From: Micromonospora siamensis
GTDB lineage: Bacteria; Actinomycetota; Actinomycetes; Mycobacteriales; Micromonosporaceae
Reading direction: 5' to 3'
Length of the DNA stretch: 64,000 nt
Assembly (NCBI RefSeq): GCF_900090305.1
Contig: NZ_LT607751.1
Location: 1,798,001 to 1,862,000, forward strand
The notes beneath the pieces were generated by a model. The model worked only from the letters and a program-made list of their open reading frames with translations. It ran no database searches and was not told the DNA's origin. Positions 32,867 to 51,456 of the stretch are shown piece after piece. The translations under genes and the position numbers were made by a program. Each line of letters begins with the position of its first letter. Position 1 is the first letter of the stretch.

Positions 32867-34129
32867 TCAGAGCCGGTAGGCCTTGTCGCCCTTGGTGACG
32901 CCACGCGTGTCGAAGAAGCGCGGAGCGATCTCGGCCAGCCGGTCGGCGTCGTACTGCTTGTGGTTCTGCACCAGGATGACCAGGTCGGCGGCGGCGACGG
33001 CGCTCTCCAGGTCGTTCACCCGCAGCACGTCCACGTCGGAGATCTTCCACTGGCTCACGAACGGGTCGTGGTAGCTCAGCTTGGCGCCCAGGGCGCCCAG
33101 CTTCTGGGCCAGCTCGACGGCCGGCGACTCGCGCTGGTCGGCGATGTTCGGCTTGTAGGTCACACCGAGCAGCAGCACCGACGCGCCGTTGGTGGCCTTG
33201 CCGGCGTCGTTGAGCAGGTTCTGCGCCCGGTGCGCCACGTACGCGGGCATCGTCGCGTTGATCTCCTGCGCCAGCTCGACGAAGCGGAACGGGTAGCCGA
33301 GCTTCGCCCGCACGTTGTGGCTCAGGTAGTTCGGGTCGATCGGGATGCAGTGGCCGCCGACGCCCGGGCCCGGGTAGAACGCCTGGAAGCCGAACGGCTT
33401 GCTGGCGGCGGCGTGGATGACGTCCCACAGGTCGATGTCCAGCTCGTGGCAGAACCGGGCCATCTCGTTGACCAGCGCGATGTTGATGTGCCGGTAGGTG
33501 TTCTCCAGCAGCTTGGCGGTCTCCGCCTCGCGGGTGCCCTTGGCCCGGACCACCGTCTCGATGAACCGGCCGTAGAACTGCGCGGCCCGCTCCGAGCAGG
33601 CCGGGGTGTGCCCACCGACCACCTTCGGGGTGTTGTGCGCGCCGAACTTCTCGTTGCCCGGGTCGATCCGCTCGGGGGAGAAGGCCAGGTGGAAGTCCGT
33701 GCCGGCGGTGAGGCCGGACGCCTTCTCCAGGATCGGCCGGACCACCTCGTCGGTCGTACCCGGGTAGGTGGTCGACTCCAGGATGACCAGCATGCCCTCG
33801 GTGAGGTTGGCGGCCACGGCCTCGGTCGCGCCGATCACCGCGCGCAGGTCCGGGCCCTGGTCCTCCGAGAGCGGGGTCGGCACGCAGATCACCGCTGCGG
33901 CGGCGCCCCGGATCTCCGAGGCGTCGGTGGTGGCCCGGAAGCCGCCGCCGATCATCTCGGCGATGTCGCCGTCGGACAGGTCGTCGACGTGCGACTTGCC
34001 GGAGTTCAGCGACTCGACGACGCGGGCGTTGATGTCGAAGCCGAGGACGGTCATCCCGGCCTTGGTCGCCTCCTGGGCGAGCGGTAGGCCGACGTATCCG
34101 AGCCCGAGAATCACGACATCGACAGACAC
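32867..34129 (-). CDS. UDP-N-acetylhexosamine 6-dehydrogenase (WecC/WbpA-like)
   Basis: A 420-residue nucleotide-sugar dehydrogenase. The NAD fold begins ILGLGYVGLPLAQEA. Catalytic Cys lies in GPGVGGHCIPIDP near residue 265, and the C-terminal NDP-sugar domain contains LLLGVTYKPNIADQRESP. It oxidises the C6-OH of a UDP-sugar to the uronic acid. With wecB in the same locus, UDP-ManNAc is the likeliest substrate, giving UDP-ManNAcA; UDP-GlcNAc is the alternative. GTG 34129 follows AAGGAG. Confidence 0.88.
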   Translation of the reverse strand: MSVDVVILGLGYVGLPLAQEATKAGMTVLGFDINARVVESLNSGKSHVDDLSDGDIAEMIGGGFRATTDASEIRGAAAAVICVPTPLSEDQGPDLRAVIGATEAVAANLTEGMLVILESTTYPGTTDEVVRPILEKASGLTAGTDFHLAFSPERIDPGNEKFGAHNTPKVVGGHTPACSERAAQFYGRFIETVVRAKGTREAETAKLLENTYRHINIALVNEMARFCHELDIDLWDVIHAAASKPFGFQAFYPGPGVGGHCIPIDPNYLSHNVRAKLGYPFRFVELAQEINATMPAYVAHRAQNLLNDAGKATNGASVLLLGVTYKPNIADQRESPAVELAQKLGALGAKLSYHDPFVSQWKISDVDVLRVNDLESAVAAADLVILVQNHKQYDADRLAEIAPRFFDTRGVTKGDKAYRL

Positions 34130-34323
34130 TGCCTACTCCTTCGTTGGGTGGCCCGGTGCGGGGGTCTCTGCGTGCCGACCGGCCGAGTTGCGACGGACAT
34201 GGTTTCAGATGGAAGGCCGGTCGCTGGTGGCCCGCCAGGAATGATAGTGACGGCGCCCGTCGAACCGGACGAGGCGTACCTCGGGGGAGTCTTCGCCCTG
34301 TCCGGTGGCCCGCGGGCGGAACG

Positions 34324-35073
34324 TCAGGAGAGCTTGCGCTTCACCTTGCCGGCCAGCCGCTTGCCGCGGCGCAGGACGCCGAGCATCTTCCGACCGCCTT
34401 CGGACTTGACCAGGATAGCTCGCACGGCCTGCTGGCCTCCCGGCGCCTGCGGGCGCGACTTGAGCTCCTTGTTCAGCTTCTCGACCCGGTCGGCCAGGGT
34501 GCCGAGCTGCCCGAGCAGGGCGGTCTCGCTCAGTCGGCGGTCCCGCTCCGCGCCGGCCAGGGCGGTGGCCACCTCGACGTCGCGGCGAGCGGCGCCCTCG
34601 GCCGCGCCGAGGCGAACCGCGATGGCGGCGGTCAGCAGCTGGGCAGCCGGCTCGGTGCTTCCCTCGGCCAGCTCCAGCGCCGCGTAGGGACGGCCGTTGA
34701 GGCTGCCGAGGCCGGCCCACTTCAGGCCGGTCAGGCGGCCGGCGACCGGTTCCTCCGCGTCCGTCGGGCCCTCGACGTCGAGGATCACGAGCAGTCGACC
34801 GCCCGGGCGCACAGCCGGCCGGAGCGCCGGGACGAGCGCGTCGAGCCAGCGCAGATCCAGCGGGCCGCGGTCGATGACGACCGTGTCGAAACTCTCCGTG
34901 ACCGGAAGCGTACCAATCTGCGGACCGAGCTCGAGCACGGTCGCCGCCCGGAAGGGCAGGGCGAGCGCGTCGCTGCCGCGACGCCGTTCGTCCGTGATGA
35001 CGAGCAGTTCGTCGTCGGCTGCGGGCCGGCCATCGCTGGCGGTGCCGAGCATGGCGGGCGCACCGTTCGTCAT
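34324..35073 (-). CDS. SAM-methyltransferase-like protein with C-terminal coiled coil
   Basis: A 249-residue protein. The first 125 residues resemble part of a class I methyltransferase (VLELGPQIG, DTVVIDRGPLDL, VRPGGRLLVILDVEG). The glycine-rich SAM loop is weak, so activity is uncertain. Residues about 150-215 form a charged helix with heptad character (LADRVEKLNKELKSR). The end is strongly basic. It is divergent from the next glycosyltransferase, across 180 bases. GGAGG precedes ATG 35073. Confidence 0.65.
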   Translation of the reverse strand: MTNGAPAMLGTASDGRPAADDELLVITDERRRGSDALALPFRAATVLELGPQIGTLPVTESFDTVVIDRGPLDLRWLDALVPALRPAVRPGGRLLVILDVEGPTDAEEPVAGRLTGLKWAGLGSLNGRPYAALELAEGSTEPAAQLLTAAIAVRLGAAEGAARRDVEVATALAGAERDRRLSETALLGQLGTLADRVEKLNKELKSRPQAPGGQQAVRAILVKSEGGRKMLGVLRRGKRLAGKVKRKLS

Positions 35074-35253: not shown

Positions 35254-37437
35254 GTGGCAGGCAGTCAGTCATCGAACGTTGATGTGGACGGCGGGAAGAA
35301 GGTCGAGACACATCGACGCCCATGGTTGAAGCCTGTGAAGGGTGCGGTCGACCGGAAGGTGCTCGCCGGCTGGGAGCAGGCCGCCGACCGGGACAGCCTG
35401 CACACCCGGGGCGCCCGCGCCCTCTCGCCCACCGCGCGGCAGCTCACCCCCGGCGTGACCGTGGTGCTGGCCGGCGCCGGTGACCGGTTCGCCGACACCC
35501 TCGACGGGATCGCCCGGCAGACGGTGGACACCGGTCTGGTCGAGGTGGTGGTCGTGCTGACCGACGGTGCGGGTCGGGCCGCGGTGCACGACCTCGGCGC
35601 CGCCCGGCCCGCCCTGGCCGTACGCGTGGTCACCGTCGCCGGGGCCGGCCTGAACCGGGCCTTCTCCCTCGGCGTGGCCGCCGCCTCCCGGCAGTACGTC
35701 ACCCTGGTCGAGGCGGGCGACCGGCTCTCTCCGAACTATCTGGAGGCGCTGCTGGCCGGGGCCGGCGACGGCGTCGTCGCCGCCGCCTCCGTGGTCGCCG
35801 ACGGCGAGGCCGTCGACAGCGCCGCCGACCTGGCGGTCGGCCGGCTGGTGAGCACCGCCCTGGCCGACCGGCTGTTCCGCACCGGTGTGGTCGACGAGGT
35901 CGACGGCGTCTTCTGGCTCGCCGCGGCCGTGCACGGCCCCGCGGAACTCACGACCGCCGCCGACGCGGTGTACCACCGCACCGCCGTGCCCGCCCGGCCC
36001 GGCACGGGCGACTTCCGCACCGAGATCACCGAGCGGCTGGCGACGGTCGTCCGGCTCGAGCGGCTGCACGCCGACTCCGGCAGCGCCGTCGGTGAACTGG
36101 TCACCCAGGCGGTGGCCCGGCAGGCCGAGCGGATGGGCGACTACCTGGCCCAGCACCCGGACCAGCACCCCGAGGTGGTCAAGGAGCTCGACCGGTTCCC
36201 GGTCTTCGAGCTGCCGCACGGGCTGGTCAACCGCGGCATGCCGCGCGGCCTCGTGGTCGCGTACGCCTTCTCGCCGTACGCCGACGCGAGCGCCATCGTG
36301 ATGGCCAAGCGGGTCCGGAACATGGGCGGGGTGGCGGACGTCGTCTACAACGCGATGGACCGGATGCGGACCAAGGACCAGACGGTCCGGCGGATCTCCG
36401 GCCCGTTCATCGCCGACGAGGCGCCGGTGGCCACCCCGACCTACTTCTCGCACTGGGGCTCGATGGAGAAGTTCGTCGAGGCCGGCATGGCGGAGATCCA
36501 CAAGTGGGAGGCCGAGAAGGGCCGCTACGAGTGGATCTACAGCCGGGCCCACTTCGCCGCCTCGCACCTGCTGGCCGCGGTCTACAAGCTGGCGAACCCG
36601 GAGGTCCGCTGGACCGCCGAGTTCTCCGACCCGCTGTCGAAGGACATGCTGGACGAGGAGCGGGGCACCCCGGTCGAGGATGGCCCGGTGCTGGAGACGC
36701 TGCGCAACGGCGCGAAGGCGCTCGGGCTGCCCATCCCCGAGTCCAGCAACTGCTTCGTCTGGTGTGAGGAGCTGACCTACGTCCTCGCCGACGAGCTGAT
36801 CTTCACCAACCCGAACCAGCTCGAGTACATGATGAGCTACTGCTCGGATGAGAAGGTGGCGGCGACGGCGCGGTCGAAGGCGGTCGTGTCGGCGCACCCG
36901 ACCCTGCCCAGGGACTTCTACTCCATGGTGGACTTCGACTACCCGATGTCGGAGGGTCTGATCCACCTGGCGTACTTCGGCGTCTTCTACGCCACCCGGG
37001 GCATGGACGACGTGCTGGCCGCCGTCGCCAACGCCCCTGAGGAGCTGCGCCGCAAGCTGCGCATCCACGTGTTCACCACCAAGCCGGCCGAGCTGGACCG
37101 GCGTGCCGCCGAGCTGGGCATCGCCGACTGCATCCAGGTCGGGCCGTACGTGCGCTTCCTGGAGTTCCTCAACCTCACCACCAAGTTCGACTGCCTCATC
37201 GTCAACGACGCGTTCACCGCCGACTACCAGCCACTGAACCCCTACCTGCCGTCGAAGTGGTCGGACTACAAGGGCAGCGGCACGTCGGTCTGGGGTCTGA
37301 CCGAGGCGGGCAGCCCGCTCAACGGGCAGAAGCAGCTCGCGTACAACTCGCCGGTGGGTGACGTGGAGGCCGCCGGCAAGGTCCTTGAGCAGCTCGTTCG
37401 CGACAAGCTCGCGGAGCGGTCGTCCCGCTCGGCGTAA
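35254..37437 (+). CDS. Large two-domain glycosyltransferase-like protein
   Basis: A 727-residue protein. Residues about 65-200 look like a GT-A (GT2) domain, TPGVTVVLAGAGDRFADTLDGIARQ then YVTLVEAGDRLSPNYLEALL, with the usual DxD replaced. Residues about 325-720 resemble a GT-B (GT4-like) enzyme (VVAYAFSPYADASAIVMAKRVR...; LIHLAYFGVFYATRGMDDVLAAV). It probably transfers a sugar to the surface glycan. GTG 35254 follows GGAGGGG. The open frame continues upstream but without family-like sequence. wecB follows. Confidence 0.72.
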   Translation: MAGSQSSNVDVDGGKKVETHRRPWLKPVKGAVDRKVLAGWEQAADRDSLHTRGARALSPTARQLTPGVTVVLAGAGDRFADTLDGIARQTVDTGLVEVVVVLTDGAGRAAVHDLGAARPALAVRVVTVAGAGLNRAFSLGVAAASRQYVTLVEAGDRLSPNYLEALLAGAGDGVVAAASVVADGEAVDSAADLAVGRLVSTALADRLFRTGVVDEVDGVFWLAAAVHGPAELTTAADAVYHRTAVPARPGTGDFRTEITERLATVVRLERLHADSGSAVGELVTQAVARQAERMGDYLAQHPDQHPEVVKELDRFPVFELPHGLVNRGMPRGLVVAYAFSPYADASAIVMAKRVRNMGGVADVVYNAMDRMRTKDQTVRRISGPFIADEAPVATPTYFSHWGSMEKFVEAGMAEIHKWEAEKGRYEWIYSRAHFAASHLLAAVYKLANPEVRWTAEFSDPLSKDMLDEERGTPVEDGPVLETLRNGAKALGLPIPESSNCFVWCEELTYVLADELIFTNPNQLEYMMSYCSDEKVAATARSKAVVSAHPTLPRDFYSMVDFDYPMSEGLIHLAYFGVFYATRGMDDVLAAVANAPEELRRKLRIHVFTTKPAELDRRAAELGIADCIQVGPYVRFLEFLNLTTKFDCLIVNDAFTADYQPLNPYLPSKWSDYKGSGTSVWGLTEAGSPLNGQKQLAYNSPVGDVEAAGKVLEQLVRDKLAERSSRSA

Positions 37438-37514: not shown

Positions 37515-38594
37515 ATGTCTGATCTCGTCCTGCACATCACCGGGGCCCGCCCGAACTTCCCGAAGGCGGCACCGGTGATCCGCGCCCTGGCTGCCCTCGG
37601 CGTGTCTCAGAAGCTCGTCCATACCGGCCAGCACTACGACGAGCGGATGTCCGAGGTCTTCTTCCGCCAGCTCGGGCTGCCGGAGCCGGACGTCAACCTG
37701 GAGGTCGGCTCGGGTACGCACGCCAAGCAGACCGCGGCGATCATGACCGGTCTCGAGGACCTCTTCGAGGCTGAGCGCCCTGGGATGCTGGTGGTCTACG
37801 GCGACGTGAACTCGACCGTGGCCGCCGCCCTGGTCGCGGCGAAGATGCAGATCCCGCTCGCGCACGTCGAGGCCGGTCTGCGAAGCTTCGACCCGAGCAT
37901 GCCGGAGGAGGTCAACCGTCTGGTCACCGACCGGTTGTCCGACCTGCTCTTCGCGACCAGCCCGGACGCCGTGGCGCACCTGGGCAACGAGGGCGTGGCA
38001 CCGGAGAAGATCCACTTCGTCGGTAACCCGATGATCGACACCCTGCTGGCCAACATCGACCGCTTCGACCAGGACAAGGCCCGTACCGAGCTGGGCCTGG
38101 CCGACCGTTACGTGGTGGCCACCCTGCACCGGCCGGGCAACGTGGACGACCCGGCCGACGCTGCCGCGCTGGTCAAGGCCATGCACGCGGTCGCCGACCA
38201 GGCCGAGGTGGTGCTGCCGCTGCACCCGCGCGGTCGGGGCCGACTGCAGGCCGCCGGCCTGTTCGACCACCCGGCGCTGCGGGTGATCGACCCGCTCGGC
38301 TACGTCGAATTCCTCGGTCTGGTCCGGGGCGCCGCCGCGGTCGTCACCGACTCCGGCGGGGTGCAGGAGGAGACCACCATGCTGGGCGTACCCTGCCTGA
38401 CCCTGCGCCCGAACACCGAGCGACCGGTCACCATCACCCACGGCACCAACCAGCTGGTCACCCGGGAGCGACTGCCACAGATCGTGGAGGCGGTGCTCAC
38501 GGCCGGTCGGGCCGAGTCCTGGCCGACCCCGCCGCTCTGGGACGGCAGGGCCGGCGAGCGGATCGCCCAGGTGATCGCGGCCCGGCTGCGCTGA
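37515..38594 (+). CDS. wecB: UDP-N-acetylglucosamine 2-epimerase (non-hydrolysing)
   Basis: A 359-residue epimerase interconverting UDP-GlcNAc and UDP-ManNAc. It has ITGARPNFPKAAP, HTGQHYDERMS, VYGDVNSTVAAAL, HVEAGLRSFDPSMPEE and DSGGVQEETTMLG, all characteristic of the GT-B-fold family. UDP-ManNAc would feed the dehydrogenase at 32867-34129. It lies 77 bases after the glycosyltransferase gene and is probably in the same transcript. Confidence 0.94.
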   Translation: MSDLVLHITGARPNFPKAAPVIRALAALGVSQKLVHTGQHYDERMSEVFFRQLGLPEPDVNLEVGSGTHAKQTAAIMTGLEDLFEAERPGMLVVYGDVNSTVAAALVAAKMQIPLAHVEAGLRSFDPSMPEEVNRLVTDRLSDLLFATSPDAVAHLGNEGVAPEKIHFVGNPMIDTLLANIDRFDQDKARTELGLADRYVVATLHRPGNVDDPADAAALVKAMHAVADQAEVVLPLHPRGRGRLQAAGLFDHPALRVIDPLGYVEFLGLVRGAAAVVTDSGGVQEETTMLGVPCLTLRPNTERPVTITHGTNQLVTRERLPQIVEAVLTAGRAESWPTPPLWDGRAGERIAQVIAARLR

Positions 38595-38651: not shown

Positions 38652-39740
38652 TCAGCCGGCGGCGCGCAGCACCGAGGCGCCCTTCTCGAGCTTGAACCGC
38701 TCCTCGGTGAGCGTCGGCACGTCGGTCAGCCACTGCTTGATGATGTCCTGCTCGTCGCGGCGCACCGTGTCGTCCATGACCACCGCGGCGTTGGCCGCGA
38801 GCCGGTCGGCGAGCAGCGGCAGGGCCGGGTAGCGGGCCTGGCCGGCGGTCGTGCCGGGCGGGCCGTCGACGAAGAGCAGGCCGATCCGGTCCAGGTCGGC
38901 CCAGGCCCGTCGGGAGTACCAGGGGGCGCTGTGGTCGCCCAGGTCGAACTCCTCCAGCGGGGCGTGTCGCGCCTCGGCCAGGTGACTGACCCCGTGCTCG
39001 GCGAGCAGCTTGTTGGTCTGCCGGGCGTACGCCTCGTCGTGCTCCAGGCTGACCACCCGGCCGTCGACGCCGAACTGGCGCAACGCCAGCGAGCACCAGA
39101 GCGTGGAGACGCCGCTGCCGCACTCCACGATCAATCCGGGCCGCTCGGTGCGCACCAGGTCGACCAGGAGCAGGAGCACGTCGGGAGAGGCCGCCCAGCC
39201 CCGCATCGGCGGCACCCGACCCTCCACGGTGATCATCGAATAGAGGTTGAGCAGCGACTCGACCTCGCGATAGGTGTGCCCGGTCTCCCGGACCACCACC
39301 CGCTTCATGTACTCGTTGACCCGCTCGACGGCAGGGTCCAGGGTGATCGCCTCGACCGTCTCCGTGGTGTGCCGCACCTCGGCGCGGATCTGCTCGTGCT
39401 GCTGCTCGGTGGTGTCGAACCGGCCGACGAGCCGGGTCACCTCGTGGTCGAGCTGCCCGACCCGACGGCGCAGCTCGTACATCACGAGCCGGTTCTGCCG
39501 GTGCGAGTGCAGCGCGGCCAGCAGCACCAGCCCGATGGCGGCCACCAGCAGGACCGTGGTGGCGCCGGCGCCCAGGAGCGTCGCGGCGACGACCGCCAGG
39601 GCCACCGCAGCCACCGTCGCCACCGCGACGTCCCGGCGGACGAGCAGGCTGCCCAGCGAGCCGAAGGCCGGCCGGAGCGTCCCCCCGTGGGAGGTCGCCG
39701 TCGGGCCGGCGGTGCCCCGCCCTTCGTCGGTTGCTGGCAT
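38652..39740 (-). CDS. Membrane-tethered class I methyltransferase-like protein
   Basis: A 362-residue protein. Two adjacent TM helices (about 38-62 and 64-82) are followed by a coiled coil (LRRRVGQLDHEVTRLVGRFDTTEQQHEQI). A SAM-binding domain then follows: LIVECGSGVSTLWCSLAL near 215, the acidic VVSLEHDEAYA, and LLFVDGPPG. This order suggests a methyltransferase held at the inner membrane, fitting modification of a lipid-linked or nascent glycan. ATG 39740 (MPATDEGRG) is chosen; longer in-frame starts lack support. Confidence 0.77.
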   Translation of the reverse strand: MPATDEGRGTAGPTATSHGGTLRPAFGSLGSLLVRRDVAVATVAAVALAVVAATLLGAGATTVLLVAAIGLVLLAALHSHRQNRLVMYELRRRVGQLDHEVTRLVGRFDTTEQQHEQIRAEVRHTTETVEAITLDPAVERVNEYMKRVVVRETGHTYREVESLLNLYSMITVEGRVPPMRGWAASPDVLLLLVDLVRTERPGLIVECGSGVSTLWCSLALRQFGVDGRVVSLEHDEAYARQTNKLLAEHGVSHLAEARHAPLEEFDLGDHSAPWYSRRAWADLDRIGLLFVDGPPGTTAGQARYPALPLLADRLAANAAVVMDDTVRRDEQDIIKQWLTDVPTLTEERFKLEKGASVLRAAG

Positions 39741-39917: not shown

Positions 39918-41957
39918 TCAGAGCGGGGAGAACTCGGCGAAGTAGCTGCGCGCGCCGGCGACGTCGCCGTGCAGGAGGTCCGCCCACGCGGCGACGACGT
40001 TGTCCGGGTTGTGGCTGCGGTTGATCTCGGCCTTGGCGCGAGCCGACTGCTCCGCCCATCCGTTGCCGTGGGCGGTGTTCAGCACGGCGGCGGCGGCCTC
40101 GCTGGTCGTCGCGTGCACCCAGTCCTTGTGGTAGAGCTCGTCCGCCCCCGGCCAGGGCCGGATGATCGGCACGGCGCCGGAGGCCATGCCCTCGGCGACG
40201 GAGGCGTGGCTGCCCTCCTCGTCGCTGGTGGAGATGATGAAGCCGACCTGCCGGAACCAGCGGGCCATGTCCCGACCAGGCGCGTGGAAGGTGACGGCGT
40301 CGCGCAGCAGCGGGTCACGCTCGATGCGCTCGAAGCACCAGCCGACGTACTCGCGCTCCTCCTCGTCCTTCCACGCGTACTTGTTGGTCCACGGCATCTT
40401 GCCGCGCACCGCCATGGTGAAGCGCGGGTCGGTGCGGCGGATCTCGGTGAGCAGGTCCAGCGCCAGGTCGAACCGCTTACGGATGAACTCGAAGCCGACG
40501 AAGCCCAGGGTGAACTCGGCCCCCGGCAGCTTCGGTCGGTCCAGCCACTCGGTCTCCATGTAGTTCGGGATGAAGAGCAGCTTCTCCAGCGGCCACTTCA
40601 GCTCGTCACGGATCCGTCGCCCGAACAGCGGTGCGATGTAGACGACCGCATCGACGTTCTCCATGACGATCTCGTGCGGGTACGGCGAGTCCAGCTCGAA
40701 GCGGTGCAGCCGCATCGCCATGAACTGGTCCGGGCGCTTGCGCTCGGACATCCAGATCGCGCTGGTCCGGGCCCACTCGGCGAAGATCGAGTCCGACTCG
40801 GCCATCCGGGCTTCGGTGAGATTGGTCGGCCGGGCCAGGCCGGGCCAGTCGTCGATGGACATCTCCAGGTCGGTGCGCTTGTCGAGGCGCTCACCCAGGT
40901 CCACCGCGAACTTCAGGTCGAAGCCGGCGAGCATCGCCTTGCGGGGCGCCCGCGGCGTACGCGGACGCTCCGGCATGACCGCCTTGCGCACCGCCTCGAC
41001 GCCCCGCCGCTGGGCGGCGGTGGTCCAGTCGGCCGGGGCGCCGTCGCTGGGCATCCCCATCGGCGTGGTCGGCAGGCCGTTGCCCCAGCCGGAACGCTCG
41101 GCGGGCAGCCAGGCGCTGGACAGGTCGCGGAACTTCGCGGCGGCGAAGGAGTACGGCAGCGGGCCGGTCTCCTGCTCGATGCTCAGCCGGCGCCAGAGCT
41201 CCAGCTGCGCCGGGCCGGCCGGCGGCGGCTCGGGGGTGATCACCTCGCCGGTCTCCGGGTTGAGCACCGGCTCCGCCGTGGGCCGCTCGACGACCGCGGG
41301 CTTGTCGGCGCAGGCGTCGCAGCGCCGGTCGACGGCGATCGGCGGGAAGATCTCGATCCTGGGGCGGCGGGTCGAGACGGCCCGCTCGACCGACTCGCGG
41401 GCCAGCTCGCTGTCGGTGAGGAAACCACCGATGACGTCCGCCACGCGGTTGAGCTGGGTGCCGTACTCCGTGGTGTTGCCGGCGGGCAGCCACTGCGCGG
41501 GCAGCGCCAGGGCCCACACCTGCCGGAACGGGGTGCCACCGTTGACCGCCGCGCGGGCGGCCTCCAGGGTCTCGGCGATGACCAGGTCGGCGTTCTCCAG
41601 CCCGGGCAGCGAGCGCGGCCCGGCCGGCTTGCCGGCCGGCGCGGCCTGGGGGGCGGGACGGGGGCGGAGCAGTTCGCTCGTACGCTGCAGGGATCGACGC
41701 GACTTGCCGTACGCCTTGGCCAGCGGCTTGCGCAGGGCCGGTGACAGGAACGCCAGGCGCGGTGTGCGGGCCGGGGCGGGCGCGTTGGGGAGCGGAGGAG
41801 CCGGGCGCCGCCAGGTCACGTCCTTGACCGTCGCGTTCGCCGCGGTGAAGGCGTCACGGACCGCCTGCCGCCAGCAACAGACACCGGGCTGCTCGGGCCA
41901 GCCACTGTCCCTGAGCAACACGACCCGCATGGCGGGCTCGCGGCTTTCGTTCTCCAT
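39918..41957 (-). CDS. GT4-like glycosyltransferase
   Basis: A 679-residue protein. The C-terminal 300 residues look like a GT-B catalytic half: LGFVGFEFIRKRFDLALDLL, then FIISTSDEEGSHASVAEGMASGAVPIIRPWPGADEL, which matches the nucleotide-sugar-binding E-x7-E region. The N-terminal 350 residues are unusual, with a Pro-rich stretch and a CDAC motif near 225. It probably builds the surface glycan. The start is ATG 41957; Met10 (MRVVLLRDSGW) is an alternative. Confidence 0.75.
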   Translation of the reverse strand: MENESREPAMRVVLLRDSGWPEQPGVCCWRQAVRDAFTAANATVKDVTWRRPAPPLPNAPAPARTPRLAFLSPALRKPLAKAYGKSRRSLQRTSELLRPRPAPQAAPAGKPAGPRSLPGLENADLVIAETLEAARAAVNGGTPFRQVWALALPAQWLPAGNTTEYGTQLNRVADVIGGFLTDSELARESVERAVSTRRPRIEIFPPIAVDRRCDACADKPAVVERPTAEPVLNPETGEVITPEPPPAGPAQLELWRRLSIEQETGPLPYSFAAAKFRDLSSAWLPAERSGWGNGLPTTPMGMPSDGAPADWTTAAQRRGVEAVRKAVMPERPRTPRAPRKAMLAGFDLKFAVDLGERLDKRTDLEMSIDDWPGLARPTNLTEARMAESDSIFAEWARTSAIWMSERKRPDQFMAMRLHRFELDSPYPHEIVMENVDAVVYIAPLFGRRIRDELKWPLEKLLFIPNYMETEWLDRPKLPGAEFTLGFVGFEFIRKRFDLALDLLTEIRRTDPRFTMAVRGKMPWTNKYAWKDEEEREYVGWCFERIERDPLLRDAVTFHAPGRDMARWFRQVGFIISTSDEEGSHASVAEGMASGAVPIIRPWPGADELYHKDWVHATTSEAAAAVLNTAHGNGWAEQSARAKAEINRSHNPDNVVAAWADLLHGDVAGARSYFAEFSPL

Positions 41958-44154: not shown

Positions 44155-45819
44155 TCAGCCGTCGCCGGGCGGCTGAGCGCCGCCGTCGGGGCGCGGTCGG
44201 ACCGGCACGGCGGGGCGGACCACCCGGCGGCGGATCCGGGCGGAGAGCTTGCGGCCGGCCAGCGTACCGACCAGGACGGTGGCCTTGGCCAGCGAGCGGA
44301 CGCCGGCCACCTCGACCGCGTTCGGCACCCACCGGCTGCCCCCGAGGGCTGGGTCGGCGATGGTCCGCAGACCTGCGGCGAGCTGCTCCGGGGCGAACCG
44401 GCCCAGATCCACCATGCCGATCGTCTCGGCGGCGACCGTACGGCTGCCGTGCAGTTCGGTGACGGCGTCGGCGAGCGACCGGCCGGCCGTGCCGACCCGG
44501 TCGACTCGGCCGAGGGCGGCGGTGCGCCACAACCGGGTGGCCGGCCCGTCGGTCGCTCCCGACGGGCGCAGCTCGACCAGCCCCACCTGCTCCCGGTCGG
44601 CCAGCTCCACCAGCCGGCGTACGGCGTGCGGGCCGAGCCCGTGCCGGGCCGGCAGGTCCAGCCGGTACGCGGCCGGGAAAGGCGTGTGGGGCGCCTCGGT
44701 GACCAGCCGCACTCGCGGGTCCCCGCGGTAGGTCTCGGCCAGCAGCCGCAGGTCCAGGTCCGGGTCGGCGAGGACCCGCCGGCGTCCCTCGCCCAGCCGG
44801 TCCCAGGGGCCGACCAGGCACACCACCAGGTCGCGTTCGTCGCCGCCGAGGACGGCGTCGACGGCGGCCCGGACCCGCTCCAGCGGCTCGTCGCCGGCGG
44901 TGACCACCGCCTCGACCAGCGGCACCGACCAGTTCGAGCCGCCGACCCGGCGCAGCCAGCGCGGATAGGGCATCCGGTCGGCCAGGTACGGTCGATTGTG
45001 GCGCTGCACCCGCTCCTTGTCCTGCATCACGTGGCTGGCGCCGAGGTGCCAGCTGCCGGCGAGCGGCTCGGGGACGAACAGCGCCCCGGCTGCGGCGAGC
45101 CGGTAGCCCAGTTCGGTGTCCTCGCCCAGGCGAAGCGTGGTGTCCAGGCCGCCGCACGCCTGGTACAGCTCGCGGCGCAGCGCGGCGGTCGCGCCGACGT
45201 GGATGCCGAACACCTCGTGGTCGGCCGCGCGGAGCTGGTCGGTGCGGTCGATGTACCGCTCGACGTAGTCGTGCGGCTCGCCCTCGGTGTCGAACAGCCG
45301 TTGCGGGGTGCCGGCGTCCCAGAGCGCGACGACGGCGTCCGGGGTGGGCCAGTCGGCCGCGCCGGGGCAGGTGTCGACGAACCGCTTGTAGCCGAGGGTC
45401 ACCGCGTACGGGGCGACGTGGTGCCAGCGCAGTTGGGCCTCGACGTGCGCCGGGTGCGCCACCATGTCGGCGTCGAGCCAGTGCAACACCTCACCGGTGC
45501 TCACCGTGGCGCCGACGTGCAGCGCGTTGGCCCGGCCCCAGCCGTCGGAGTGCTCCCCGGCGCGGACCAGCCGGGTGTTGGCCGGCCGGACGGCGGGCAG
45601 CTCGATCGGCGGCTGCGAGCCGTCGTCGACGACTACGACCTCCAGCAGCTCGTCGGGGTAGGTCTGCCGGCTGAGCGAGGCGAGTGTCAGGTCCAGGCTG
45701 GCCTGGCAGTTGTAGGCCGGGATGACGACGCTCACCGACAGCTCGGGGCGCCAGCTGCCGAGGTCGGGGACGGTCAGCGTGGACCAGTCGTTGCGGTGCA
45801 CGCGGGGCACGGCGCTCAT
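44155..45819 (-). CDS. GT2 family glycosyltransferase with C-terminal extension
   Basis: A 554-residue protein. The GT-A domain is at about residues 27-300: SVSVVIPAYNCQASLDLTL, VVVVDDGSQPP, WLDADMVAHPAHVEAQ and GLDTTLRLGEDTELGYRL supply the metal and acceptor motifs. The C-terminal 250 residues contain no known motif and end in a basic segment. ATG at 45819 overlaps the upstream stop by four bases (ATGA), so it is coupled to the preceding glycosyltransferase. Confidence 0.86.
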   Translation of the reverse strand: MSAVPRVHRNDWSTLTVPDLGSWRPELSVSVVIPAYNCQASLDLTLASLSRQTYPDELLEVVVVDDGSQPPIELPAVRPANTRLVRAGEHSDGWGRANALHVGATVSTGEVLHWLDADMVAHPAHVEAQLRWHHVAPYAVTLGYKRFVDTCPGAADWPTPDAVVALWDAGTPQRLFDTEGEPHDYVERYIDRTDQLRAADHEVFGIHVGATAALRRELYQACGGLDTTLRLGEDTELGYRLAAAGALFVPEPLAGSWHLGASHVMQDKERVQRHNRPYLADRMPYPRWLRRVGGSNWSVPLVEAVVTAGDEPLERVRAAVDAVLGGDERDLVVCLVGPWDRLGEGRRRVLADPDLDLRLLAETYRGDPRVRLVTEAPHTPFPAAYRLDLPARHGLGPHAVRRLVELADREQVGLVELRPSGATDGPATRLWRTAALGRVDRVGTAGRSLADAVTELHGSRTVAAETIGMVDLGRFAPEQLAAGLRTIADPALGGSRWVPNAVEVAGVRSLAKATVLVGTLAGRKLSARIRRRVVRPAVPVRPRPDGGAQPPGDG

Positions 45820-47654
45820 GCGGTTCCGAAGCTCTCGTGGGGCGGCAGGCCCGTCCACTGCCGCAGCGGGTTCTGCACGAAGTAGTCCAGCCCAGGATCC
45901 CAGGTGTGGCCCTCGCCGTGCCGGGTGTAGAGGAAACCGAAGCCGTGCGTGCGGTAGACCAGGCCACCGGCGTCGAGCACCCGGTCCAGCAGGGCCCGGT
46001 CGATGGACCGGTTCACCGGCCGCCAGCCGCCGACCGCCTCCAGGTCGCCGCGGGACAGCAGCATGGTGCCGCCGGCCACCACGTCGTCGTAGATCTCGCT
46101 GGCCATCCGGCGCCGGACGGTGAGGTCGCGGGGCTCCAGGTAGACGAACTCGGCGCCCTTGCCGACCACCGTGGCGGCCGAGTAGTGGCGGGCCAGGACC
46201 AGGTCCCAGACGTGCTCCACGCCGTACCGGTCGTCGTCGTCGACCTTGGTGACCAGAGTGCCCCGGGCATGCCGGGTGACCTCGGCGAGCGCCGCGCCGA
46301 ACTGGACCCCGGCGCCGACGGTGACCACCTGCACGGGCAGCGGGCAGGCCGCGACGGCGGCGGCCACCTGGGGCGGCAGCTCGACGCCGTGCAGTCCGAC
46401 CACGACCTCCAGCTGCGGGTAGGTCTGTCCGGCCAAGTCGCGCAGCGCCACGACCAGCCGCTCCGGTCTGCGGGTCATCAGCAGGGCGGTGACCGAGGGC
46501 GGGGTCGCCAGACCGGGATGGTCGGCGATCGCCCGGGGCAGGGCCACCGCGGCGGCGTGCCGGCGCAGCGCGGCGCGGCGCTGCCTGACGCTGGCCAGTT
46601 CCCGGTCGACGGCGTCGGTGTCCGGCCCGGGTGGGGCGAGGGTGGTCAGCGCGGCCAGCTCCGGGCCGAGCAGCCCGGTCACCTCCGCCGGTAGGTCGGG
46701 GGCGTGCACCAGCAGGCCGGTCATGGCCAGCTGCGCCACGGTGGCGGCGAGCGCCGGGCCGGCACCGGCCTGCGGCGGCACGGTCACCGCGTACAGGTCG
46801 CGCAGCACGGCCGACTGGCGACCGTCGAGCGGTTCGCCGATCCGGCCGGCTACCACGGTGTGCGACTCGGAGCCGGTGTCGATGCGCCACCGGTCGTCGG
46901 TGAGGACCAGCCGGCCGACCGGCATCTTCGCGCCGTACCGGTTGCGGCCGACCGGGTTCGCGGCGCCGGCGTCGACCAGCACGACCGGCGGGTCGGCCGG
47001 GGGCCGGACGCCGGTGGTGTCGCCGGCCAGCCGGGCCGCGGGCACGTTGAGCCGGCCGGTCGGGGGTTCGGCGGGAGGCTCGGCGTCGGCGGGCGACAGC
47101 CGCAGGTCGTACGGGCGGACCGGGGCGTCACCCGGCTCGGGTCCGGCCGGGGCGTGGGTCACCGCGGCCGGGTCGAGCCAGCCGGGCAGGGGGCCGTCGA
47201 CGGCGATGTCGACCGAGCCGGGGGCGGGTAGTGCCGGGTCGGGCCGCAGCACGGCCAACACGGCGGCGACCACCCGGTGCAGCGGCAGCGCGTCGGTCAG
47301 GGTCACCGCGACCTGGGCCCGGCCGGTGCCGGCGGCGGGCAGCGCGACCTGGTGGGTCAGCAGCCCCGGCAGCGGGCCGAGCCGCCCGGACCAGCCGGGC
47401 CGGGGCGCCTGCCAGCGCTCGACGACGACCCGTAACTCCCGGACGGAGGCGGTGTCGGCCGTTCGCAGCAGGTGCCGGGTCAGCTCGCCGACGGTGCCGA
47501 CGGTGAGGTCGCCGGGCCGACCGCCGGTCGCGGTGGCCGACTGCTCGTCCCAGTTGGGCAGCCGGCGGGGGGTGACGTCACGAAGGCGTTGGGAGAAGGA
47601 GCCGAGTCGCCGGCGTACCCCGGCCACGACCTGGCGCCGGGTCACGGGCGCCAT
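45816..47654 (-). CDS. GT2-like glycosyltransferase with long N-terminal domain
   Basis: A 612-residue protein. The C-terminal 250 residues are GT-A-like: PSVTALLMTRRPERLVVALRD, LEVVVGLHG, the metal-site TKVDDDDRYGVEHVWDLVL, and GGTMLLSRGDLEAVGGW. The N-terminal 370 residues are unrecognised, rich in Pro/Ala/Asp, and might bind acceptor or partner proteins. The start is ATG 47654. The gene lies 47 bases after galE. Confidence 0.78.
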   Translation of the reverse strand: MAPVTRRQVVAGVRRRLGSFSQRLRDVTPRRLPNWDEQSATATGGRPGDLTVGTVGELTRHLLRTADTASVRELRVVVERWQAPRPGWSGRLGPLPGLLTHQVALPAAGTGRAQVAVTLTDALPLHRVVAAVLAVLRPDPALPAPGSVDIAVDGPLPGWLDPAAVTHAPAGPEPGDAPVRPYDLRLSPADAEPPAEPPTGRLNVPAARLAGDTTGVRPPADPPVVLVDAGAANPVGRNRYGAKMPVGRLVLTDDRWRIDTGSESHTVVAGRIGEPLDGRQSAVLRDLYAVTVPPQAGAGPALAATVAQLAMTGLLVHAPDLPAEVTGLLGPELAALTTLAPPGPDTDAVDRELASVRQRRAALRRHAAAVALPRAIADHPGLATPPSVTALLMTRRPERLVVALRDLAGQTYPQLEVVVGLHGVELPPQVAAAVAACPLPVQVVTVGAGVQFGAALAEVTRHARGTLVTKVDDDDRYGVEHVWDLVLARHYSAATVVGKGAEFVYLEPRDLTVRRRMASEIYDDVVAGGTMLLSRGDLEAVGGWRPVNRSIDRALLDRVLDAGGLVYRTHGFGFLYTRHGEGHTWDPGLDYFVQNPLRQWTGLPPHESFGTA

Positions 47655-47701
47655 GTCGATCCTCCGCGTCGCCGTACCCCTGTCCGGAACATCGGAGAAA
47701 G

Positions 47702-48826
47702 CTAGCACGGGGCCGGGTCGCCGCCGGTGACGACGGCGGCCGCGTCCCGCGTCCCGTCGCCCATCGCCGGGACCGTGGCGGTCGGCGCCGGCGCGCCGAG
47801 CACCGAGTCGCGTTCGGCCATCCAGCGCAGCGAGTCGCGGATGCCGTCGGCGATCGAGTACGTCGGGGTCCAGCCGAGTAGTTCCCGGGCCCGGTCGCTG
47901 CGGGTGTAGGTGCCCGCCGAGTCGCCGGGCCGACGGTCGGTCTCGTGGACCTTCACCGAGTGGCCGAGGACCTGCTCGAAGGCGGTCACCAGCTCGCGCA
48001 CGGTGGTGCCGTCGCCGGTGCCCAGGTTGATCACGGTGTACGCGTCGCCGTCGGCCGGGAAGATCGAGTCGAACCGGCGCAGGGCCAGGACGTGCGCCCG
48101 GGCCAGGTCCCAGACGTGCACGTAGTCGCGGATGCCGGAGCCGTCGCGGGTGGGCCAGTCGGTGCCGGTGAGCGGGAACTCCTCGCCACCGCGGGCGGCC
48201 TCGATGAGCCGGCCGAGCACGTGGGTCGGCCGGGGCACCTGCAGGCCGGTACGCAGCCGCGGGTCGGCACCGATCGGGTTGAAGTAGCGCAGCGACAGCA
48301 CCCGCAGCGGGTACGCCCGGGCGACGTCCTCCAGCATCTGCTCCAGCATCGCCTTGCTGCGCGCGTACGGGCTGAGCGCCTCGATGGGCGAGCTCTCGTC
48401 GACGGTGAAGTCGGCGCCGGGCTGGTAGATCGAGGCCGACGAGCTGAACAGCAGCCGGGTGCAGCCGTTGCGGATGAGGCTCTCGACCAGGTCGAGGGAC
48501 TTGGCGACGTTCTCCCGGTAGTAGCGCAGCGGGTGGGCCACCGACTCGGGCACCACGATCAGCGCGGCGCAGTGCACCACGGCCTGGATGTCCGGGTGCT
48601 CGGCGAAGATCTTGTCGAGCAGGGGGCCGTCGGCCATGTCGCCCTGGTAGAAGATCCGCCCCCGGGTGAACTCCTCCCGGCCGGTGCTGAGGTTGTCCAG
48701 GATCACCGGGGTGATGCCGTTCTCCAGGCAGGCGGTGGCGACCGTGCTGCCGATGAAGCCGGCGCCGCCGACGACGAGGACCTTCACCTCGGGCAGGGCG
48801 GGCGCGTTCTCGGTGCGGGGGAGCAT
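47702..48826 (-). CDS. galE: UDP-glucose 4-epimerase
   Basis: A 374-residue extended SDR. It has GGAGFIGSTVATACLENG, SSSASIYQP, the catalytic YARSK, and RYFNPIGADPRLRTG, typical of GalE-type UDP-Glc/Gal (or GlcNAc/GalNAc) epimerases. It would supply a galactose-type donor to the locus. ATG 48826 adds about 13 residues before the Rossmann fold; a GTG near 48787 is possible. The C-terminus carries an extra Ala/Pro tail. Second gene of the TetR-led operon. Confidence 0.9.
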   Translation of the reverse strand: MLPRTENAPALPEVKVLVVGGAGFIGSTVATACLENGITPVILDNLSTGREEFTRGRIFYQGDMADGPLLDKIFAEHPDIQAVVHCAALIVVPESVAHPLRYYRENVAKSLDLVESLIRNGCTRLLFSSSASIYQPGADFTVDESSPIEALSPYARSKAMLEQMLEDVARAYPLRVLSLRYFNPIGADPRLRTGLQVPRPTHVLGRLIEAARGGEEFPLTGTDWPTRDGSGIRDYVHVWDLARAHVLALRRFDSIFPADGDAYTVINLGTGDGTTVRELVTAFEQVLGHSVKVHETDRRPGDSAGTYTRSDRARELLGWTPTYSIADGIRDSLRWMAERDSVLGAPAPTATVPAMGDGTRDAAAVVTGGDPAPC

Positions 48827-48857
48827 CTTCGGTGTCTCCTGACGGGGGTCCTGGGGA

Positions 48858-49607
48858 TCAGGCGGTGACGGTGGCGCCCGGTGGGGGCGTGGTGACCGGT
48901 GGGACGACCGTGGCGGGGGCAGTCTCGGTGGCCGGGGGCGCGGCCGGTCGGGGCGCCGCCTCGCTGGCCGGGGGCGCGGGGGGTCGCGGCGCCGGTGGGG
49001 GTGGTGACATCAGCTCGGACTGCAGGGCGGCGGCGGTGACCGCGGCGAGCCGGGGCAGGTGGCCCTGGGGGATCCGGGTCCGGGAGATGGCCAACCGCCA
49101 GTAGAGCGGCCCGATGATCAGGTCGACGGCCGCCTCGGTGTCGATCTGCGGGGAGAGTTCGCCGCGGGCGATCGCCCGGCCGAGCAGCTGGTCGGCGACG
49201 TTGCGCTGGTTGGCGCGCAGCGCCTGCTGGAGGGTCTCGGCGATCTGCGGGTTGCGGGCCGCCTCGGCGAGCAGGTCGGGGACGACCTGGGAGGCCAGCC
49301 GGTGCTTGAGCACCTGGTTGATGATCTGGAGCAGGATCTCCAGGTCGTCGCGGAGCGAGCCGGTGTCCGGCAGCGGCATCTTGCGGACCGCGAGGTCGGA
49401 CACCACGTCGAGGACCAGGGCCAGCTTGGAGCTCCACCGGCGGTAGACCGCGGTCTTGCCCACGCCGGCCCGGCGGGCCACTCCCTCGATGGACAGGCGC
49501 CCGTAGCCGACCTCGGCGAGCTCCTGCATGACGGCGGCGCGGATGGCCGAGGTGATGTCTCCTCGGAGCACCGCTGCCCCCGCCGGAGCGCGCTTGTTCT
49601 GGGTCAC
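48858..49607 (-). CDS. TetR-family transcriptional regulator
   Basis: A 249-residue repressor. The HTH spans about residues 17-63 (LSIEGVARRAGVGKTAVYRRW). A helical ligand domain (about 70-195) of the TetR_C type follows. A Pro/Ala-rich tail of about 50 residues is unusual for the family. GTG 49607 is seven bases after a minus-strand TACGCT (49620-49615), so it may be leaderless. The gene is first in the operon with galE and three glycosyltransferases. Confidence 0.9.
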   Translation of the reverse strand: MTQNKRAPAGAAVLRGDITSAIRAAVMQELAEVGYGRLSIEGVARRAGVGKTAVYRRWSSKLALVLDVVSDLAVRKMPLPDTGSLRDDLEILLQIINQVLKHRLASQVVPDLLAEAARNPQIAETLQQALRANQRNVADQLLGRAIARGELSPQIDTEAAVDLIIGPLYWRLAISRTRIPQGHLPRLAAVTAAALQSELMSPPPPAPRPPAPPASEAAPRPAAPPATETAPATVVPPVTTPPPGATVTA

Positions 49608-49614
49608 GCAGGCC

Positions 49615-49666: not shown

Positions 49667-49766
49667 CGGCGCAGCGTTGAAACGGACCCGTTCCGTCGGG
49701 TGCCGCTTATACGCTGAGTGACGGATGCTCCTCCCCAGAAGGACCGAGAGATCGGAGCACATCTCC

Positions 49767-50663
49767 ATGCCCGACACGGCGTTCGCCGATCCGGACGCGG
49801 GCCTGACCCCGGCGGAACTGGCCGCCCGGCACGGCCTCGGTTTCGCCGGCACGAGACCGACTCTCGGCGGATATGCCCGGCAGGTCTGGGCGTACCGGCA
49901 CTTCATCGTGGCGTACTCCAACGCCAAGGTGGCCGCCTCGTTCAGCCTGACCCGGCTGGGTCGGCTCTGGCAGGTGCTCACCCCGCTGACCAACGCGGCG
50001 GTCTACTACCTGATCTTCGGCGTGATCCTGGCCACCAGCCGTTCGGTGCCGAACTTCATCGCGTACCTCTGCACCGGGCTGTTCATCTTCCTGTTCACCC
50101 AGACGGTGGCCCAGGCCGGCGTCCAGGCGATCACCGGCAACATGGGGCTGATCCGGGCGCTGCACTTCCCGCGAGCCTGCCTGCCCGTCGCGATCGCGCT
50201 GATCGAGCTGCAGAACATCGCCGCCTCGATGCTGGTGCTGACGGCCATCGTGCTGCTCACCGGTGAGCCGCTCACCTTCGAGTGGTTGCTGATCGTCCCG
50301 GCGCTGCTGCTCCAGATGACCTTCAACACCGGCCTGGCGATGTTCATGGCCCGGCTGGGCAGCAAGCTCACCGACCTCAAGCAGGTCGTCCCGTTCATCA
50401 TGCGGACCTGGATGTACGCCTCCGGCGTCTTCTACAGCTCGACGCTCTTCGCCAAGCACCTGCCTGGCTGGGCGGCGGGAATCGTCGAGGCCAACCCGCT
50501 GCTGGTCTACATCGAGCTGATCCGGCACGCGATGCTGGAGAACGTCCAGCTCTCGTCTACGCTGCCCCACCTGTGGCTGTTGGCGGTCGTCTGGGCGGCG
50601 GTGGTCTTCGTCGGTGGTTATGTCTACTTTTGGCGAGGGGAGCAGGAGTATGGACGTGGCTGA
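49767..50663 (+). CDS. ABC-2 type polysaccharide exporter permease
   Basis: A 298-residue permease of the TagG/Wzm/RfbA type. About six TM helices follow a 55-residue cytoplasmic N-terminus; for example AAVYYLIFGVILA, TGLFIFLFTQTVAQ and LLVPALLLQ-type segments, with the last TM near the C-terminus (VWAAVVFVGGYVYFW). It moves lipid-linked polysaccharide across the inner membrane with the ATPase that overlaps it. GGAG precedes ATG 49767; ATG 49725 is an in-frame alternative. Confidence 0.9.
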   Translation: MPDTAFADPDAGLTPAELAARHGLGFAGTRPTLGGYARQVWAYRHFIVAYSNAKVAASFSLTRLGRLWQVLTPLTNAAVYYLIFGVILATSRSVPNFIAYLCTGLFIFLFTQTVAQAGVQAITGNMGLIRALHFPRACLPVAIALIELQNIAASMLVLTAIVLLTGEPLTFEWLLIVPALLLQMTFNTGLAMFMARLGSKLTDLKQVVPFIMRTWMYASGVFYSSTLFAKHLPGWAAGIVEANPLLVYIELIRHAMLENVQLSSTLPHLWLLAVVWAAVVFVGGYVYFWRGEQEYGRG

Positions 50664-51456
50664 GGTCGCCGACTACCGGGCCGAAGCCGGCCAGCGGATC
50701 CCCACCGTGATCGTGGACGACGTGCACGTCGTCTACCGGGTGCAGGGCCCCGGCACGGTCGGCAGCGGCTCCCCGGTGGCCGCGCTGAGCCGGATGCTCA
50801 CCGGCAAGCGCACCCCGGGTCTGCGCGAGGTGCACGCGATCAAGGGGGTCAGCTTCACCGCGTACCGGGGTGAGGCGATCGGCCTGATCGGCAGCAACGG
50901 CTCCGGCAAGTCGACCATCCTGCGGGCCATCGCCGGGCTGCTGCCGATTGAGAAGGGCGGCCTCTACACCGCCGGCCAGCCCTCGCTGCTCGGCGTCAAC
51001 GCCGCGCTGATGAACGACCTGTCCGGCGAGCGCAACGTCGAGCTGGGCTGCCTGGCCATGGGCATGAGCAAGGCCGACGCCCGCCGGACCGCCCCGTCGA
51101 TCATCGACTTCTCCGGCATCAACGAGCGCGGCGACTTCGCCTCGCTGCCGATGCGGACCTACTCGTCCGGCATGGCGGCGCGGCTGCGCTTTGCCATCGC
51201 CGCCGCGAAGAAGCACGACGTGCTGCTGATCGACGAGGCGCTGGCCACCGGCGACGCCCGGTTCCGCAAGCGCAGCGAGGCCCGGGTGCGCGAGCTGCGC
51301 GCCGAGGCCGGCACCGTCTTCCTGGTCAGCCACAACAACCAGTCGATCATCGACACCTGCGAGCGGGCCATCTGGCTCGAATCCGGGGTGATCCGCGGCG
51401 ACGGCCCGACCCGTGACGTGATCAAGGAATATCAGCAGTACATGAACCGCAAGTGA
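50650..51456 (+). CDS. ABC polysaccharide exporter ATPase
   Basis: A 268-residue TagH/Wzt-type ATPase. Walker A is GLIGSNGSGKSTI near residue 80, the signature region is TYSSGMAARLRFAIA, Walker B is VLLIDEALATGDARF, and the switch is LVSHN. There is no C-terminal carbohydrate-binding domain, so export should not depend on a specific end modification. It overlaps the permease by 14 bases; GGGGAGCAGGAG precedes ATG 50650. Confidence 0.92.
   Translation: MDVAEVADYRAEAGQRIPTVIVDDVHVVYRVQGPGTVGSGSPVAALSRMLTGKRTPGLREVHAIKGVSFTAYRGEAIGLIGSNGSGKSTILRAIAGLLPIEKGGLYTAGQPSLLGVNAALMNDLSGERNVELGCLAMGMSKADARRTAPSIIDFSGINERGDFASLPMRTYSSGMAARLRFAIAAAKKHDVLLIDEALATGDARFRKRSEARVRELRAEAGTVFLVSHNNQSIIDTCERAIWLESGVIRGDGPTRDVIKEYQQYMNRK

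Follow-up and report, generated by a model that had tools for sequence, protein, structure and literature searches.

We analysed a window of 64,000 nucleotides from the genome of Micromonospora siamensis (C1:1798001-1862000; the genome is one contig of 6.25 Mb). It holds a locus of 14 genes and 18.6 kb (positions 32867-51456), which we label A to N along the window. On balance we favor the view that this is a cell-wall glycopolymer locus for a teichuronic-acid-type polymer, which would carry an N-acetylated uronic acid and sulfate and would be made in place of ribitol teichoic acid. Its predicted parts are uronate precursor enzymes (A, D), a sulfotransferase (G), a 4-epimerase (K), glycosyltransferase-like (C, F, H, I, J) and methyltransferase-like proteins (B, E), a regulator (L) and an exporter (M, N). 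Genes were called from frame-wise G+C and open reading frames (ORFs), several mechanical ORFs opening too early; families were assigned with Pfam and NCBIfam, and structural relatives were taken from sequence matches to the PDB. An earlier sequence-only reading had predicted here a sulfated, uronic-acid-containing glycan with a Wzm/Wzt-type exporter and had thought it new. All the gene families it listed are present where it had placed them. An exported, probably uronic and sulfated surface glycan is still the best reading, while the likeness of the exporter and the novelty had been overstated.

The exporter consists of the membrane subunit M (49725-50663, plus strand; ABC2_membrane) and the neighbouring ATPase N (50650-51456, plus strand; ABC_tran), below also called Wzm and Wzt. 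Among solved chains they were nearest to TarG and TarH. The best PDB match of M was TarG (6jbh_C, 3.8e-07), and at E ≤1e-5 it matched only TarG and two transport-permease chains co-solved with TagH. N was nearest to TarH (6jbh_A, 4e-51) and TagH, before ATPases of the O-antigen type, and its 268 amino acids leave no space for a sugar-binding domain at the C-terminus. Thus an ABC-2 exporter pair is present, yet the proposed likeness to O-antigen Wzm/Wzt was ruled out by the PDB ranking. N reached 165 bits against a cut-off of 320 for the TagH equivalog NF010066; hence we describe the exporter as working like TarGH and do not file it as TagH proper. The TetR gene L (48858-49607, minus strand; TetR_N, TetR_C_11) is divergent from the exporter and was added to the earlier gene list. 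Like the window, each of the 19 other Micromonospora compared has a tetR gene adjoining the exporter.

The surroundings of this exporter in other Micromonospora carry the argument for an exchanged polymer. Wzm was found in 93 of 160 genomes of the wider family, including 20 of 20 Micromonospora. In all 17 Micromonospora without the cluster, tetR-wzm-wzt was followed by a fusion of an IspD-type cytidylyltransferase with a short-chain dehydrogenase/reductase and then by a Glyphos_transf protein. The fusion (504 amino acids in G003) was assigned by Pfam in G003, and the Glyphos_transf protein (558-570 amino acids in three gene-called genomes) in G003 and G045; the other 16 genomes matched the G003 copies with 87-93% and 76-89% identity, respectively. 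From its domains the fusion is read as a CDP-ribitol synthase, which we take to be comparable to Bcs1/TarIJ. Because this CDP-ribitol-synthase-like fusion and the Glyphos_transf protein come directly after wzt, the locus of the 17 genomes looks like a ribitol teichoic-acid locus. Next to the exporter of the window genome, M. mirobrigensis DSM 44830 or Micromonospora sp. PLK6-60, neither gene was detected, so these three loci lack the pair of CDP-ribitol synthase and polyol-phosphate polymerase that marks a ribitol teichoic-acid locus. Regulator and exporter are homologous to those of the ribitol-type loci (Wzm 61-66%, Wzt 69-78% identity), whereas the cargo genes differ, with the uronate/sulfotransferase cluster in their place. 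Three of 20 Micromonospora had a PF13469 protein of any kind at the exporter; the other 17 and Hamadaea flava (G080) had none there. Fisher's test for the locus comparison (3/3 vs 0/17) yielded 8.8e-4 with relatedness ignored. Because three genomes carry the uronate/sulfotransferase cluster at the exporter without ribitol genes, we read the cluster as a replacement of the ribitol type; an exchange of polymer type around a conserved exporter fits the predicted anatomy of a wall glycopolymer locus.

M. mirobrigensis DSM 44830 and PLK6-60 have all 14 genes in unchanged order and orientation (tblastn, 20-kb regions), and therefore the gene set is not a product of chance. Dehydrogenase A was 94-99% identical in both, and in each of the three exporter-linked loci G was flanked by F and H. 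The cluster of H. flava reads J-I-F-A-C-E-D-H-K with tetR-wzm-wzt, and no sulfotransferase match was detected in that locus by tblastn or with PF13469. Judged by these gene contents, the sulfotransferase is an optional part of the cluster. Gene F was matched in 13 of 81 family genomes including the window's own, with five of the others strong. A plasmid search with C returned 5 distant matches of 22-33% identity. The stretch L157 repeats part of the window and was left out of the analysis.

The uronate precursor is expected from A (32867-34129, minus strand), a UDP-sugar 6-dehydrogenase resembling WecC and Cap5O, and D (37515-38594, plus strand), a WecB-type, non-hydrolysing UDP-GlcNAc 2-epimerase. 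A matched the N-terminal, middle and C-terminal UDPG_MGDP_dh domains with E-values of 9.2e-39, 1.7e-30 and 1.4e-20 and exceeded the cut-off of family TIGR03026 (432.6 bits vs 189.8); UDP-uronic acid enzymes thus stand within a wall-polymer locus, as would be expected for a teichuronic-acid-type polymer. It remained below the UDP-ManNAc dehydrogenase equivalog NF008286 (257.5 of 459 bits) and the TviB-type model (236 of 592). The best PDB relatives of A were Cap5O (3ojl, 2.6e-63), the substrate of which is presumably UDP-ManNAc, and 4r16, an archaeal UDP-ManNAcA dehydrogenase; the GGHC motif was aligned. D matched Epimerase_2 with 1.4e-102 and scored 301.6 bits with the WecB equivalog TIGR00236 (cut-off 210). 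Its solved relatives include UDP-diNAcGlcA 2-epimerases, which are about equally similar. Taken together, the nearness of A to Cap5O and 4r16 and the equivalog match of D make UDP-ManNAcA the likeliest uronate precursor on present alignments, yet the similarity to diNAcGlcA epimerases keeps it from being certain. The earlier assignment of UDP-ManNAcA to this enzyme pair therefore stood for the epimerase, while on the side of the dehydrogenase the equivalog was missed and the product is one that we infer.

G (42326-43069, plus strand) is a Sulfotransfer_3 protein (5.9e-10, 40 bits, cut-off 27) within the ORF 42071-43069. Its start was set at about 42326, as a database protein of 247 amino acids spans exactly 42326-43069; the nearest database proteins, which place the genome in Micromonospora, were from M. 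mirobrigensis, M. endolithica and a Micromonospora sp. GRSGSTLL, E46, GFKE, R147 and S155 were invariant in 44 of 44 rows of alignment A1, which comprised G and 43 more sequences, taken from the 119 further relatives listed out of 1206 found. We take these motifs to be the elements that bind 3'-phosphoadenosine 5'-phosphosulfate (PAPS) in sulfotransferases, so that G appears to combine the domain with both the PAPS-binding loop and the R...S element. Matches to solved structures were weak (best E 0.0017). PAPS is probably made by the host, because an adenosine 5'-phosphosulfate (APS) kinase domain is encoded in the genome outside the cluster (C1:5960373, E 4.3e-55).

Co-conservation of sulfotransferase and exporter, the check proposed in the sequence-only reading, was seen in three Micromonospora and was narrow, with 3 of 20 loci and any close sulfotransferase in 5 of 160 genomes. 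We compared 80 named loci around sulfotransferase relatives, the best 80 of 241, many of which end early at contig ends. Within 10 kb tblastn detected Wzm-like proteins in 4 and Wzt-like proteins in 9 loci (several of the latter no more than 25-33% identical), WecC in 6, WecB in 4, GalE in 12, H in 14, I in 9 and J in 9. The exporter numbers ruled out a broad co-conservation, and with counts this low no single gene, whether of the exporter or a glycosyltransferase, accompanies the sulfotransferase throughout. In five Nocardioides loci (L077, L097, L114, L118, L129) the sulfotransferase relative was near I- or J-like proteins of 32-53% identity. The metagenome-assembled genome of a distant actinomycete, Actinomycetes bacterium DX1.bin79 (L093), has a relative of 40% identity with Wzm-like (30%), Wzt-like (40%), WecB-like (43%) and WecC-like (36%) proteins within 10 kb, possibly an independent case of the sulfotransferase/exporter/uronate combination. 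In M. endolithica an island (L057:7676-15495) holds the sulfotransferase together with homologues of H, I and J and an F-like glycosyltransferase, while the genome's exporter locus belongs to the ribitol type; within 10 kb of the island there was no match to exporter or uronate genes. The island is bordered by sugar ABC importer/LacI and acyl-CoA dehydrogenase genes unrelated to the cluster. As a separate observation, three Sulfotransfer_3 genes lie within about 11 kb of each other, at a distance from the exporter, in G045 (C3:520-530 kb), G082 (C1:5558-5569 kb) and G123 (C1:6892-6904 kb), and the same arrangement occurs off-exporter in G127 (C4:436-447 kb) and G156 (C46:368-379 kb), both Micromonospora. 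The triple loci of these five Micromonospora are perhaps a second sulfated-glycan cluster.

Across 160 Micromonospora the sulfotransferase (E ≤1e-30) was present in five genomes: the window genome, M. mirobrigensis (G134), PLK6-60 (G147), M. endolithica (G203) and G290. The copy of G290 is split into two pieces about 2.3 kb apart (L163:15157-18186), and no other cluster gene was found within the 39 kb examined there. The fusion (E ≤1e-150) was found in 150 of the 160 genomes and not in the window genome, G134, G147, G290, G177, G205, G226, G234, G273 and G307. One genome thus had both (sulfotransferase off-locus), four had the sulfotransferase alone (one of them split and off-locus), six had neither and 149 had the fusion alone. 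Lack of the fusion in 4 of 5 genomes with the sulfotransferase vs 6 of 155 without it gave a Fisher value of 3.9e-5, with relatedness ignored and the split gene of G290 counted among the five.

Several points weigh against a sulfated uronate polymer in place of ribitol teichoic acid. Six Micromonospora of 5.1-6.1 Mb (G177, G205, G226, G234, G273, G307) are without the fusion and without a close sulfotransferase match, so that loss of the fusion needs no sulfotransferase. In the same 160 genomes of the wider family in which 93 had a related Wzm, a close copy of the fusion was found in 35; because most Wzm-bearing family genomes are without a close fusion, lack of the fusion stands out in Micromonospora but not in the family at large. 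The fusion counts refer to the fused form only, and unfused CDP-ribitol enzymes were not searched for. To this are added the similar cluster of H. flava without a sulfotransferase, the nearness of D to UDP-diNAcGlcA 2-epimerases and the lack of an equivalog cut-off that fixes the substrate of A. Finally, the window genome has a sole Glyphos_transf match (full-length, at G000:C1:1175676), located in an orphan protein of 743 amino acids with a GT2-like N-terminal part recognised by eye (G000:C1:1174605-1176836; L155:7606-9837). With this orphan the genome may still be able to make a phosphate polymer. By eye, the GT2-like part of the orphan resembles gene H. A full-length Glyphos_transf of the orphan's kind was present in 19 of 20 Micromonospora searched.

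The orphan leads to the proposal that the product is a hybrid, in which a uronate chain sits on a teichoic acid and the polyol-phosphate part is supplied by the orphan GT2-Glyphos_transf protein or by unfused enzymes elsewhere. Such an architecture has a precedent in Streptomyces griseus, where the polymer TUA sits on ribitol teichoic acid according to the part of PMC13274773 available. Moreover, 10 of the 17 other Micromonospora combine ribitol genes with a TUA-like aminotransferase/oxidoreductase pair beside tetR. Yet no CDP-ribitol fusion was found in the window genome, the orphan has no obvious wall-polymer neighbours and stands among unrelated-looking genes (judged by length and sequence start only), and PLK6-60 has the same locus with no Glyphos_transf match. 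We consider a hybrid unlikely. That the chain is a loosely bound capsule or a polysaccharide of the sporulation matrix, and not anchored to the wall, is quite improbable in our view. ABC-exported sulfated capsules have been described in Vibrio and Cobetia, and the predicted sulfated polysaccharide of Actinoplanes missouriensis is thought to be a component of the sporangium matrix in the part of PMC13390465 available; but its wps-1 cluster is of the Wzx/Wzy and not the ABC type, and the exporter studied here is nearest to TarGH, while its ortholog-like counterpart in congeners accompanies the ribitol genes.

The sulfotransferase might also act on a terminal sugar or on another acceptor such as a lipid or a small molecule, and the bulk polymer would then be uronic and unsulfated. 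The dispensability of the gene, with no match in the H. flava locus, its off-locus position in M. endolithica with H, I, J and F-like homologues, and the weak solved relatives are in line with this. On the other hand, F and H flank G in each of the three exporter-linked loci, and in M. endolithica, too, it is next to homologues of H, I and J. This conserved position beside glycosyltransferases therefore indicates a glycan acceptor, and an acceptor other than the bulk chain seems unlikely to us.

For the teichuronic-acid-type polymer that we favor, the order of steps would follow known ABC-dependent pathways, with the roles assigned from gene families. WecB and dehydrogenase A would convert UDP-GlcNAc to UDP-ManNAcA, and 4-epimerase K would deliver UDP-GalNAc or UDP-Gal. 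From these C, F, H, I and J may build a lipid-linked chain in the cytoplasm, which E, and perhaps B, would methylate and G would sulfate from PAPS. The TarGH-like exporter would carry the finished chain out, and a ligase encoded elsewhere would tie it to the wall. The predicted product is a polymer that owes its charge to carboxylate and sulfate and takes the place of the ribitol-phosphate polymer made by relatives.

The locus itself appears to be mosaic. Compared with M. mirobrigensis, identity is 96-99% for wecC, tetR and wzt and 85-98% for ten proteins of the right flank, yet only 41-51% for B, C, E and F, while in these four M. mirobrigensis and PLK6-60 agree with each other at 77-86%; the pattern recurs less markedly in D, G and H. 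Because of this contrast, the inner block of about 34.3-44.1 kb was probably exchanged in the window genome. The nearest named relative of F was from Tenggerimyces flavus (60%, vs 51-52% in Micromonospora). In a tree of 45 Wzm proteins the three cluster-bearing genomes grouped with five from other genera (97/88), while the seven ribitol-only loci and nine of eleven loci with ribitol genes and a TUA-like pair formed two other groups, G150 and G159 standing elsewhere; a clade of all Micromonospora Wzm was weakly rejected (p-AU 0.0385). The right-hand flank is common to M. mirobrigensis and PLK6-60 only (2 of 20 genomes, i.e. 19 Micromonospora and G080; three stretches were shorter than 10 kb). 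A single chromosomal site across all Micromonospora was ruled out, as the right-hand neighbourhood is unlike that of the 17 others. It is possible, if doubtful, that a fixed sulfur-for-phosphorus swap took place within one genus, in which a phosphate-free uronate/sulfate polymer replaced the phosphate polymer at the locus of the exporter, and that close relatives further recombined the inner block of glycosyltransferases.

In the ribitol-type loci, 7 of the 10 with the aminotransferase/oxidoreductase pair show a UDP-sugar dehydrogenase in the stretch, and these loci resemble the described Streptomyces TUA set, the pair being likened to utrA/utrB through descriptions of the families and not through sequence comparison. 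The other 7 of the 17 are without the pair at high identity, although L046 has more distant aminotransferases; a DUF6077 protein occupies that place in the two of these seven scanned by Pfam. No match to the pair was found in the window, L034 or L035 at E 1e-30. Among 20 ten-kilobase exporter stretches from other genera, the fusion was beside the exporter in 5 and the pair present in 10. Near three of the closest exporter relatives from another genus (L174, L176, L179; 10 ORFs), Pfam detected GH65, GH76 and GGDEF proteins and no recognisable polymer genes.

Much actinomycete wall chemistry has been published in subscription journals. In the open-access literature searched, which leaves such journals mostly outside, we found no description of a sulfated teichuronic-type or other sulfated Gram-positive wall polymer, or of a ribitol/uronate swap. 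The claim that an ABC-exported sulfated ManNAcA glycan would be new thus held, within this literature, for the combination, while its parts are known separately. The papers discussed here are cited from the parts available. Micrococcus luteus teichuronic acid, [ManNAcA-Glc]n, is an actinobacterial wall polymer with ManNAcA, as predicted here; likened by description and not by genes, it differs in that no sulfate or ABC exporter is mentioned in that part of the source (PMC3005890). The related ManNAc3NAcA polymer of S. griseus on ribitol teichoic acid is encoded by utrA-J, a locus which likewise combines UDP-sugar dehydrogenase, 2-epimerase, 4-epimerase and glycosyltransferases, with a content varying between species. 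In contrast, it makes ManNAc3NAcA via an aminotransferase/oxidase pair, which is absent from the window locus like the ribitol genes, and no sulfotransferase is described in the corresponding part of PMC13274773. ABC-exported sulfated capsules of Vibrio sp. KMM 8419 (PMC11641403) and Cobetia marina KMM 1449 (PMC11766843) share sulfotransferase genes and ABC export. Their sulfated structures were determined; their export is of the Gram-negative Kps type with Rha/Glc and Rha/Man repeats, and their clusters carry the PAPS genes, whereas our APS kinase lies elsewhere in the genome. For A. missouriensis, a related actinomycete, a sulfated polysaccharide has already been proposed (wps-1; PMC13390465). 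Its gsf cluster includes, by description and not by sequence, GT2 proteins, a dehydrogenase for UDP-ManNAc/GlcNAc and an E-like methyltransferase with two helices; export is by Wzx/Wzy or GtrA, and no ABC transporter is mentioned in the part available.

What would be new, as read from the genes, is the combination of sulfotransferase, uronate genes and a TarGH-like exporter and its exchange for ribitol genes. Bacillus subtilis switches from teichoic to teichuronic acid under phosphate shortage. In a few Micromonospora such an exchange appears to be hard-wired in the genome with a sulfotransferase added, while 150 of 160 keep the ribitol-type fusion, a natural comparison of wall chemistries within one genus, for instance between M. 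mirobrigensis DSM 44830 or PLK6-60 and M. endolithica JCM 12677. If true, this would also be a case of a sulfated wall polymer in a Gram-positive organism. Variable wall glycans serve as receptors for umbrella toxins in Streptomyces, as reported in PMC13274773, and swaps of wall polymers may therefore change who attacks whom.

The remaining genes encode the presumed assembly enzymes. Of the five glycosyltransferase-like proteins proposed earlier, H (43091-44119, minus strand; 4.8e-35) and I (44155-45819, minus strand; 7.1e-18) are GT2 enzymes that passed the Glycos_transf_2 cut-off in their enclosing ORFs, while the other three remained below their Pfam cut-offs. C (35302-37437, plus strand) is a two-domain protein with 17.1 bits for Glycos_transf_2 (cut-off 23.3), 50% identity in the syntenic loci and 43% in G080. 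Its start is uncertain, as an ORF of 1097 amino acids opens at 34144 and looks real only from about 35.3 kb; the chosen cut, 35302, is a GTC codon. F (39918-41957, minus strand) is GT-B-like with 24.7 bits for Glyco_trans_1_2 (cut-off 25). J (45816-47654, minus strand) is GT2-like with a long N-terminal part and 19 bits for Glycos_transf_2 (cut-off 23.3), and adjoins I in the syntenic loci. As to the two proposed methyltransferases, E (38652-39740, minus strand) matched Methyltransf_24 with 2.3e-12 and has an N-terminal hydrophobic stretch seen by eye. The small protein B (34324-35073, minus strand) is doubtful and methyltransferase-like by eye only, with no Pfam match up to E 1 and no NCBIfam match; its position is conserved at 41-42% identity in the syntenic loci. 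K (47702-48826, minus strand) is a GalE-type UDP-sugar 4-epimerase (TIGR01179, 320.7 bits, cut-off 262). Outside the locus, an LPMO_10 protein (31535-32779; 5e-53) adjoins dehydrogenase A, as it does in M. mirobrigensis and PLK6-60; in S. coelicolor, published work has linked an LPMO with the deposition of wall glycan.

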